A stretch of 64,000 bases of DNA from assembly GCF_004210295.1 (NCBI RefSeq), contig NZ_SDAK01000001.1, forward strand, positions 248,001-312,000, written 5' to 3'. Every line of letters begins with the position of its first letter. Position 1 is the stretch's first letter. The notes beneath the pieces were generated by a model that made no database searches, was not told the origin of the DNA, and was given only the letters and a program-made list of their open reading frames with translations. A program made the position numbers and the translations under genes. This document shows positions 16,611 through 46,909 of the stretch, one piece after another. The DNA is from Lactococcus sp. S-13 (GTDB taxonomy: Bacteria > Bacillota > Bacilli > Lactobacillales > Streptococcaceae).

Positions 16611-16772
16611 ATTAATATTATACCACTTATCATTTTTGTTGCAAGCGCTTTTTAATGTTTTGTAAGGAATCATTCTCTTGAGATATTTCTGGTTTTTTTG
16701 AGTTAGTATTCTAAATCCATGTATAGTAGGTATCTAACCAAAAACGCGACGGTGTCCACTTATTATAAATAA

Positions 16773-16801
16773 TTGACAAATCAAAATATTTCGATTATAC
16801 T
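16773..16801 (+). promoter_or_regulatory. Promoter of the DAHP synthase attenuator unit
   Basis: TTGACA (16773-16778), 17-base spacer, TATACT (16796-16801). RNA start expected near 16808, 24 bases before the leader peptide. Confidence 0.75.
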
Positions 16802-16831
16802 AGATAAAACGTAAAATATAGAGGCTTTAAG

Positions 16832-16885
16832 ATGATGAACAAACATAACAAATTTTATTTTATCTTTATAAAGGATCCACACTAG
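16832..16885 (+). CDS. Phe/Tyr-rich attenuation leader peptide
   Basis: AGAGG at 16820 stands 7 bases before ATG 16832. The 17-codon frame reads MMNKHNKFYFIFIKDPH, with F-Y-F-I-F in a row, and stops at TAG 16883. Aromatic codons next to a hairpin series ahead of an aromatic-biosynthesis gene are the hallmark of ribosome-mediated attenuation (compare pheL of enterobacteria). The stop codon lies inside the first hairpin. Confidence 0.65.
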   Translation: MMNKHNKFYFIFIKDPH

Positions 16886-16976
16886 ACCTTGTCTAAATAT
16901 GTGGATCCCTCTTTGATGTCCGTTAGGTTTAAGTCATCTTGAGGATAAAAAAGACGTCCTCAATGGGCGTCTTTTT
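16873..16976 (+). promoter_or_regulatory. Attenuator hairpins upstream of DAHP synthase
   Basis: Hairpin A: GGATCCACA (16873-16881) with TGTGGATCC (16900-16908), plus an inner TAGAC/GTCTA. Terminator: AAAAAGACG-T-CC (16948-16959) with GG-G-CGTCTTTTT (16965-16976), loop of five. Competing pairings: CCTC/GATG (16908-16918) with CATC/GAGG (16935-16944), and GAGGA (16941-16945) with TCCTC (16957-16961), the latter destroying the terminator. A ribosome stalled on the F/Y codons would cover the left arm of hairpin A. Confidence 0.6.
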
Positions 16977-17069
16977 GTCGTTTAATCCACCACTGAAAGG
17001 GGAAATAAGTCCAAAAAATCAACCAACAGCAAACAACTAAAACTAAAAACAATCAATAAGGGAGAAACA

Positions 17070-18095
17070 ATGGTTTTCACAAAAGTAAGCGCAAATATCA
17101 ATATCAAACACCTCAAACAAACTAATCACCTCAACGAAGCACAAGAAGCTAAGAAAAAAGAACGGGACAAAGAATTAGAAGCGATCATCAAAGGCGAAGA
17201 TCAACGTCTTCTCCTTATCATTGGTCCTTGCTCTTCAGATAACGAAGCAGCTGTTCTCGAATACGCCCACCGACTTGCTAAATTACAAGAAGAAGTAAAA
17301 GATCGTATCTTCATTGTCATGCGTGTTTATACAGCAAAACCAAGAACAAATGGGGACGGTTATAAAGGCCTCATTCATGAACCAAGCGCCGATGGTCGCA
17401 CTGACCTCATCAATGGAATAAAAATGGTCCGCGATCTGCATTATAAAGTAATCACAGAAACAGGATTAACAACCGCAGATGAAATGCTCTATCCTGAAAA
17501 TCTTCCACTCGTCGATGATTTGGTAAGCTACTACGCAATAGGTGCCCGCTCCGTTGAAAATCAGCAACACCGTTTTGTTGCCTCAGGAATTGATGCGCCT
17601 ACGGGCTTGAAAAATCCTACATCTGGTAACTTAAACGTGATGTTCAATGGGGTTTACGCTGCTCAACAATCTCAAGATTTCCTTTTTGGCAATGCTGAAG
17701 TGAAAACCTCAGGAAATCCCTTTGCCCATATTATTTTGCGAGGTGGATTAGATGAAAACGGCAAAAATCATCCAAACTATTACACAGACAATCTATTAGA
17801 AGCAATCGAAATTTATGAAAAAATGGGCTTAAAAAATCCATTCATCGTTGTTGATACTAACCATGATAATTCTGGGAAGAAATATATGGAACAAATCCGT
17901 ATTGTTCGACAAACACTCATTAACCGCAATTGGGACACCCAAATCCATCAACATGTTAGAGGCTTCATGATTGAATCTTACTTAGAAGACGGTCGTCAGG
18001 ATCAACCAGATGTTTTCGGAAAATCAATCACCGACCCTTGCCTTGGTTGGGATAAAACTGAACAATTGATTAAAGAAATCTATAATACAAAATAA
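17070..18095 (+). CDS. aroF: 3-deoxy-7-phosphoheptulonate (DAHP) synthase, class I AroFGH type
   Basis: Condenses phosphoenolpyruvate and erythrose 4-phosphate in the first step of aromatic amino acid synthesis. 341 residues with LLLIIGPCSSDNE, the RVYTAKPRTNGDGYKG substrate motif, ARSVENQQHRFVASG, ILRGG and VVDTNHDNSGK (metal site), typical of the E. coli-like I-alpha subclass. AGGGAG precedes the ATG. The nature of the leader (Phe and Tyr codons) suggests control by charged tRNA-Phe/Tyr. Whether the enzyme is also feedback-inhibited by Phe or Tyr cannot be decided here. Symbol aroF used loosely; the paralogue (F, G or H) is not resolved. Confidence 0.92.
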   Translation: MVFTKVSANINIKHLKQTNHLNEAQEAKKKERDKELEAIIKGEDQRLLLIIGPCSSDNEAAVLEYAHRLAKLQEEVKDRIFIVMRVYTAKPRTNGDGYKGLIHEPSADGRTDLINGIKMVRDLHYKVITETGLTTADEMLYPENLPLVDDLVSYYAIGARSVENQQHRFVASGIDAPTGLKNPTSGNLNVMFNGVYAAQQSQDFLFGNAEVKTSGNPFAHIILRGGLDENGKNHPNYYTDNLLEAIEIYEKMGLKNPFIVVDTNHDNSGKKYMEQIRIVRQTLINRNWDTQIHQHVRGFMIESYLEDGRQDQPDVFGKSITDPCLGWDKTEQLIKEIYNTK

Positions 18096-46636: not shown

Positions 46637-46909
46637 ATAAAAAAACGCCTAAAAGCACTGAGCTTAAAGGACGATTTGTCGTGGTTCCACCTTTGTTCGT
46701 TACTTTTTCACAAAAGTAACCTCTAAGGGTTTTTTAATAAAAACCTAAGCGATAACGCTGCAAACGCTCACTTTCATTTAATAAAAAGTAAGAAAGACAA
46801 CGATGAGTGTGGTTCATCTAGAAAAGTCAGGCCTTTTTTCAGTACCAAGGCTCTCTGTTGCTGACTTGTAAAGACTACTCTTTCATCTCTTGTTCGTAAA
46901 TTTTTAATT
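46637..46909 (-). promoter_or_regulatory. T-box riboswitch, histidine-responsive
   Basis: On the - strand the canonical T-box AAAGGTGGAACCACG lies at 46694-46680, followed by a terminator (CG-T-CCT/AAGC with GCTT/AGGCG, 46673-46646) and a T-run. The 5' domain has a Stem I-like fold; GATGAAC-CAC-AC-TCATC around 46809-46811 puts a CAC (His) codon in a specifier-like loop. Uncharged tRNA-His would favour antitermination. A histidine T-box ahead of the his operon is established for L. lactis. Confidence 0.88.

Follow-up and report, generated by a model that had tools for sequence, protein, structure and literature searches.

An RF01743 leader with Phe and Tyr codons ahead of a Lactococcus DAHP synthase gene, and its terminator and long coevolving helix beyond the Rfam structure

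The leader ahead of the DAHP synthase gene

We analysed a stretch of 64,000 nt from Lactococcus sp. S-13 (contig NZ_SDAK01000001.1, positions 248,001 to 312,000 of the forward strand), which is called the window throughout and from which all coordinates are counted. It contains a type I DAHP synthase gene preceded by a promoter, a short reading frame and several alternative RNA pairings:

16773..16801, + strand: promoter, with -35 TTGACA (16773-16778), a 17-nt spacer and -10 TATACT (16796-16801)
16820..16824, + strand: leader ribosome binding site (RBS) AGAGG, from sequence and alignment
16825..16849, + strand: 5' arm of helix P0, made up of 16825-16836 (12 bp, across the start codon), 16841-16844 and 16846-16849; from the minimum free energy (MFE) fold, duplex energies and coevolution
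16832..16885, + strand: leader peptide MMNKHNKFYFIFIKDPH and stop codon; ATG at 16832, 17 sense codons, TAG at 16883-16885
16853..16867, + strand: control codons TTT TAT TTT ATC TTT (F Y F I F), codons 8-12 of the leader; FYFFF in the related leaders L022 and L023
16873..16908, + strand: stop-codon hairpin 1:2, arms 16873-16881 and 16900-16908; from fold and coevolution
16908..16915, + strand: conserved stretch CCTCTTTG, directly 3' of hairpin 1:2; from the alignment
16922..16944, + strand: 3' arm of helix P0, made up of 16922-16925, 16927-16930 and 16933-16944, its end overlapping antiterminator arm 3
16939..16963, + strand: antiterminator hairpin 3:4, 16939-16945 with 16957-16963; from the Rfam structure and coevolution
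16950..16976, + strand: intrinsic terminator 4:5, 16950-16959 with 16965-16974, and U run to 16976; from fold and coevolution
17070..18095, + strand: type I DAHP synthase gene, RBS GGGAG at 17060-17064; from protein families

The promoter has 11 of the 12 consensus bases, and similar sites occur in the same position before three related leaders (L001, L022 and L023). The DAHP synthase matches TIGR00034 (267 bits vs a cut-off of 173) and PF00793. The initial annotation had described a promoter, an RBS, a 17-codon peptide with F-Y-F-I-F, a hairpin holding the stop codon, a terminator and alternative pairings, and every one of these was located. The leader folds with an MFE of -50.7 kcal/mol, compared to -30.4 +/- 3.65 kcal/mol for 200 dinucleotide shuffles (z -5.6), none of which (0/200) was as good. 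The stop codon sits in the apical part of hairpin 1:2, and the stretch CCTCTTTG behind this hairpin is invariant at 7 of 8 positions in alignment A1 and forms the beginning of the P0 3' arm in several relatives. The 3' arm of the antiterminator overlaps both the 5' arm and the loop of the terminator. A simple terminator scan missed 4:5, and the sole hairpin that it listed (in two versions) lies on the other strand.

Scanning the whole window with Rfam gave a single match at the cut-offs, the RF01743 leu-phe leader at 16805-16976 (86.7 bits vs a gathering cut-off of 70; E 8.6e-13), with an alignment that covers model positions 1-162 of 162. The peptide trait of the family is present as well, namely the codons F Y F I F with a fitting gene, DAHP synthase, downstream. 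Neither the T-box (RF00230) nor Rli60 (RF02414) has a match at cut-off in the window or at E <= 1 in 16700-17100; for the T-box this agrees with the initial annotation, which had seen none. Two further matches in 16700-17100 stay under cut-off and were taken as chance: a snoRNA (E 0.9) and, on the other strand, RF01859 Phe_leader (E 0.22). The element is real and already named, an instance of RF01743. The novelty that the initial annotation had implied is not supported, as the "Leu/phe leader" RF01743 was named in 2010 and stands in the table of Weinberg et al. 2010 (PMC2864571), there for Lactococcus lactis only. Attenuators of amino-acid genes that use a leader peptide are also already published from Firmicutes, namely Listeria Rli60 (PMC5864092) and S. 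aureus ilvD (PMC5794164). Among literature titles and abstract openings, with few subscription journals covered, we found no aromatic-codon attenuator before DAHP synthase in Lactococcus; "leader peptide" and "leuA" are both absent from the main text of PMC7724050, PMC6212727 and PMC4448216.

A T-box or a protein-bound (TRAP-like) leader would be another way to control this gene; leaders of the TRAP type carry GAG/UAG triplets in repeats, to which TRAP binds. T-boxes do occur at 2 of the 20 DAHP synthase loci scanned (of 80 named loci), both in Enterococcus (L066 and L068), so that related bacteria place two kinds of leader before this gene, and the genome of the window itself has 11 T-box matches at E <= 0.001, all under cut-off. 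However, with no T-box match at E <= 1 in 16700-17100 and the nearest candidate of this genome about 30 kb from the leader, we give this reading practically no weight.

Pairings beyond the Rfam structure

The Rfam consensus of RF01743 comprises a six-pair helix at the start codon, the stop hairpin and hairpin 3:4; it shows no pairing for the last stretch. Two features beyond this drawing are new here, terminator 4:5 and the long coevolving helix P0. Rfam's unpaired last stretch forms the 3' side of terminator 4:5, and this terminator was located in all 31 leaders studied (31/31, with that of L016 assigned by hand). In the MFE fold of the window's leader, P0 is a helix of 20 pairs (16825-16849 with 16922-16944) that encloses the control codons and the stop hairpin, and the terminator follows. 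P0 pairs the RBS, the start and the first codons of the leader with a region ending in antiterminator arm 3; because its 3' arm ends in this arm, P0 and 3:4 are mutually exclusive. The same holds for 3:4 and 4:5, which have 16957-16959 in common and both coevolve.

The 31 leaders consist of 3 of aro type, 9 before permease genes and 19 before leuA, the downstream genes being typed by eye or by short motifs except for the window, L001 and L003. Left out were L004 and L005 (weak own matches), L021 and L024 (opposite-strand echoes) and L036 and L037 (without a leader peptide). At E <= 0.01, RF01743 matches occur in 12 of 18 genomes of the genus and in 24 of 245 genomes of the family, the 12 included. 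From the 31 leaders we built a covariance model, R1, and 40 loci found with it were read as wider leaders. Coevolution was assessed by comparing the duplex energy of a segment with its own partner to that with partners swapped from other leaders (20000 permutations), for the 31 leaders, 20 representatives of these at <85% identity, 71 leaders (31 + 40) and 36 representatives. The permutations do not model ancestry, and RF01743 and R1 both include part of P0, which biases the choice of leaders that were found.

For four pairings the value of the own partners was reached in 0/20000 permutations, with the 31 leaders as well as with the 20 representatives. Own vs swapped energies in the 31 leaders are -14.0 vs -9.6 kcal/mol for P0, -19.5 vs -14.7 for 1:2, -13.1 vs -9.3 for 3:4 and -15.3 vs -11.6 for 4:5. 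A larger antiterminator made of the UUUGGCGU stretch and segment 5 was not supported (14843/20000). We also extended P0 to the region from the RBS to codon 8, paired with the entire stretch after hairpin 1:2. This extended helix gave -17.7 vs -12.2 kcal/mol swapped in the 71 leaders (better in 63/71; 0/20000) and -18.0 vs -12.0 kcal/mol in the 36 representatives (better in 33/36; 0/20000), and again 0/20000 for the 17 order-wide representatives alone. In the remaining 8 of 71 leaders, including the three of Rli60 type (-8 to -10 kcal/mol), P0 is no better than swapped. With the start-codon core omitted, the RBS side still coevolves with arm 3 (0/20000 for the 36 representatives, 75/20000 for the order-wide 17 alone), and codons 3-8 with the UUUGGCGUU stretch (3/20000 and 610/20000, respectively).

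Several controls were clean in the 36 representatives: the reversed start region (6048 of 20000), codons 3-8 with arm 3 (7992) and codons 9-14 with either part (9689 and 4343). Others were not. The RBS with UUUGGCGUU gave 442/20000 in the 36 representatives, codons 4-10 with the arm 3 region 837 and 1272 of 20000, and in the 19 representatives of the RF01743 set the reversed start region gave 248 and codons 9-14 with arm 3 gave 452 of 20000. The start region with segment 5 gave 0/20000 (31 leaders) and 4/20000 (20 representatives); we read this signal as indirect, segment 4 being the partner of both 3 and 5. Segment 5 apart, these counts show that the test has, in places, a background of roughly 1 in 80 to 1 in 15, and the counts for P0 stay well below it. 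The covariation score is 0.358 vs 0.216 shuffled for the P0 core, 1:2 and 4:5 jointly and 0.413 vs 0.232 shuffled for 3:4. Pairs are formed in 93% of alignment cells for 1:2 and 4:5, in 89% for 3:4 and in 80% for the P0 core, where 3 of 7 pairs have changes on both sides. Taken together, the pairings are well supported at the level of sequence; the switching between them is what we infer.

Control codons and the position of the ribosome

The genome of the window holds three strong leaders of this family: the window's own (FYFIF, DAHP synthase), L001 (FYLLL, peptide MFNLQHSFYLLLKEGSH) before an amino-acid permease gene (PF00324), and L003 (LLL, peptide MAYSLNTLLLQKRARAS) before leuA, the last below Rfam's cut-off. 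In the 31 leaders the control codons follow the downstream gene. Peptides of aro type carry FYFIF (window) or FYFFF (L022 and L023); L022 lies directly before a DAHP synthase gene (L119), and the gene downstream of L023 is off the contig. All 19 leuA leaders have a Leu run without Phe or Tyr inside it (four have one Arg inside), and the nine permease leaders carry FYLLL, LNLLL, INLLL, FNLLL, VLLL (three) or FFLLF (two). A DAHP synthase gene comes after the permease in 2 of the 9, exactly the two FFLLF leaders. At least three Phe/Tyr control codons are found in 4/4 leaders with a DAHP synthase gene in view, and the sole other such leader is L023. This is a natural respecification of an attenuator, in which the same RNA frame serves another pathway with other codons, and with all three versions present in a single genome, one can cleanly test whether the codons alone set the specificity.

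Side observations concern the genes themselves. In L153 and L154, permease and DAHP synthase genes stand in tandem behind one FFLLF leader, which suggests aromatic amino acids as the substrates of this permease. The genome of the window has a second DAHP synthase gene (L137, G000 C1:1768745-1769764), 84% identical to the window's and without an Rfam leader; the sequence just upstream of it resembles, by eye, what we take to be the end of secA. In 18 genomes there are 28 places with DAHP synthase genes, and among the 20 scanned with Rfam (the window copy is not one of them) a leader was in reach only at L119.

We are confident that the window's leader belongs to the RF01743 family and works by ribosome-mediated attenuation of transcription, with Phe as the main amino acid sensed and Tyr alongside it. 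This bears out the reading of the initial annotation, as the F/Y run is kept as FYFFF in two relatives, leuA leaders have Leu codons at the same position, and 1:2, 3:4 and 4:5 coevolve. An amino-acid-blind terminator behind a chance F/Y run in a T-rich stretch could draw on the fact that T-rich codons make runs of F, Y and I cheap and on a terminator that is strong on its own. Yet the run is kept in L022 and L023, Leu runs start at the same codon in 19/19 leuA leaders, and RBS and stop are in place, which makes this explanation very improbable.

The fuller account, with P0 as the sensor of the stalled ribosome, we consider somewhat favoured; it proposes that the stalled ribosome acts on the leader's start region. 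As long as Phe and Tyr suffice, the ribosome would pass codons 8-12 and leave the start region, which would then be free to form P0; P0 would take arm 3, and terminator 4:5 would form. If charged tRNA-Phe or tRNA-Tyr runs short, the ribosome would stall on codons 8-12 and its rear would cover or crowd the start region. With P0 thus delayed, 3:4 would form first, before segment 5 is made, and transcription would enter the DAHP synthase gene. Without leader translation P0 would form and transcription would stop. The switch would have to be a kinetic race, because at equilibrium the window's terminator is energetically favoured wherever the ribosome stands. A leader frame with an RBS and a run of codons for the pathway products is present and kept in two relatives, translation being predicted.

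The geometry of the leaders is in part consistent with this proposal. The first control codon is codon 8 in 3/3 aro, 19/19 leuA and 5/9 permease leaders; in the 40 wider leaders it lies at codons 8-12 and is not fixed at 8. Among 29 of the 31 leaders (all but L019 and L020), the 5' arm of P0 ends within codons 4-7 in 28, just before the first control codon. We modelled the ribosome with a footprint whose rear edge lies 15 nt behind the A-site codon. Placed at the first control codon, it weakens P0 in the 71 leaders from a mean of -17.7 to -13.4 kcal/mol, i.e. it removes on average 4.3 of 17.7 kcal/mol (at least 3 kcal/mol in 36/71), and a footprint of 18 nt leaves -11.1 kcal/mol; with the ribosome at the stop codon P0 is complete. 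In computed ensembles of whole leaders, moving the ribosome from the stop to codon 8 shifts the balance toward read-through in 23 of the 31 leaders, the opposite way in 6 and not at all in 2; without a ribosome, read-through is favoured in 12/31. The 6 opposite cases and these 12 count against the proposal. Folding the window's leader with and without such cover, the check that the initial annotation had proposed, gave P0, 1:2 and 4:5 in the MFE fold and a scan in which the terminator is favoured at every ribosome position (-5.4 to -9.1 kcal/mol), the difference between codon 8 and the stop being 1.2 kcal/mol toward read-through with no change of sign.

Two other roles for these helices have to be weighed. 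P0 might chiefly shut off leader translation after the first round by sequestering the RBS, and not read the stall. It does bury the RBS and the start codon, and its masking by the footprint at the control codons is partial; against this, the 3' arm of P0 runs into arm 3 and at that end shows coevolution with the RBS side (see above), which translation shut-off alone would not need. We consider this role quite unlikely. The attenuator could also be the same but with the stop-codon hairpin as sensor: a ribosome at the stop would open 1:2, arm 2 would pair with arm 3 (2:3) and the terminator would form, and a stall further upstream would keep 1:2 closed, so that 3:4 forms. The direction of this response is physiological, 2:3 pairs in 84% of alignment cells, and it coevolves moderately (-10.7 own vs -9.7 swapped kcal/mol; 13/20000 for the 31 leaders, 96/20000 for the 20 representatives). 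However, this signal is much weaker than those of P0, 1:2, 3:4 and 4:5, the covariation score of 2:3 lies within the shuffles (101/500 reach its own value), and the pairing is perhaps a by-product of the likeness between arms 1 and 3. We hold it to be the less likely sensor, with roughly a quarter of our confidence, and prefer P0.

Reach across the order and known systems

R1 matches were found in 109 of 245 genomes of the family (E <= 0.01) and in 39 of 395 genomes of the order (E <= 0.001). Of the 40 loci read, 29 belong to the order outside the family, 7 to genus g5 and 4 to genera g6 and g8. Outside this reading stand, for the family, matches in 69 of 76 genomes of g5 (presumably Streptococcus; 32-39 bits), three weak second matches and six strong matches in g9 (G044, G048, G050, G052, G058 and G062), for the order those in G298, G312, G331, G345, G352, G440 and G491, and twelve genus matches at E 0.0026-0.044. 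A short peptide with a Leu/Ile/Val run can be read in 40/40 wider loci, by our choice among possible start codons. The downstream gene, which is not part of R1, is leuA in 23, ilvD in 12, ilvB in 2 and another gene in 3. These three (L156, L173 and L175) have Ile-run leaders before proteins that look, by eye, like a solute-binding type, RidA and a symporter, respectively, and they may have BCAA roles.

Among the 51 leaders read outside Lactococcus (11 of the 31, and the 40) none has a Phe/Tyr run; the likely direction of change is therefore from BCAA to Phe/Tyr, as judged from this distribution and without a tree. We tentatively propose, as a conceivable though not a favoured conclusion, that RF01743, Rli60 and dozens of leuA, ilvD and ilvB leaders across the Lactobacillales form one superfamily that senses the rear of the ribosome, in which the antiterminator arm pairs with the leader's own RBS and first codons, closely followed by the control codons. 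In Lactococcus a BCAA frame would have been retargeted to Phe/Tyr by a few codon swaps as a second DAHP synthase gene came under control.

The proposed logic is shared with the pheL and trpL attenuators of E. coli, where pairings are mutually exclusive and a stall at the control codons gives read-through; in the window's leader the masked segment would be the start region, ahead of the control codons. Compared to RF01743 as drawn, the window's leader has the sequence, the start-codon pairing, the stop-codon hairpin and hairpin 3:4 in common and differs in structure, the Rfam model having six start-region pairs and an unpaired terminator 3' side. Rfam names 2 of 20 scanned wider loci, both Listeria Rli60 (RF02414), which R1 matches as well; a family listed for one species is thereby extended to other genera and tied to an experimentally studied RNA. 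Rli60 is a published ribosome-mediated attenuator (PMC5864092), described with a leader peptide, a stop hairpin, an antiterminator and a terminator like the window's leader. Unlike the latter, which lacks an RF02414 match, it has BCAA codons before ilvD and a weak P0 (energies as given above). With a mutated RBS or start codon the ilvD transcript is lower when BCAA are scarce, and with a mutated terminator it is higher in minimal medium (PMC5864092). These results fit the prediction of the P0 model and also those of other attenuator models.

The Lactococcus leu-ilv leader (Godon 1992, as cited in PMC5794164) is presumably a leuA member of RF01743, like L003, and differs from the window's leader in its Leu codons and in leuA downstream. 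The S. aureus ilvD attenuator (PMC5794164), likened here by its description, has a BCAA-rich leader peptide and a terminator as in this family, but differs from the window's leader in a 26-aa peptide and an antiterminator described as pairing with the U run. His leader peptides are reported in bacilli (PMC2965389).

Two further elements were observed in the window, both on the minus strand. At 16644-16528, a promoter-like TTGCAA, 16 nt and TATAAT are followed by a perfect 20-bp hairpin with a U run, which sits in the 5' region of the minus-strand gene 16409-15543; we saw no convincing leader peptide there, and the element is possibly a second attenuator or a short RNA. At 46664-46900 lies a T-box candidate (75.7 bits vs a cut-off of 93), one of the 11 in this genome.
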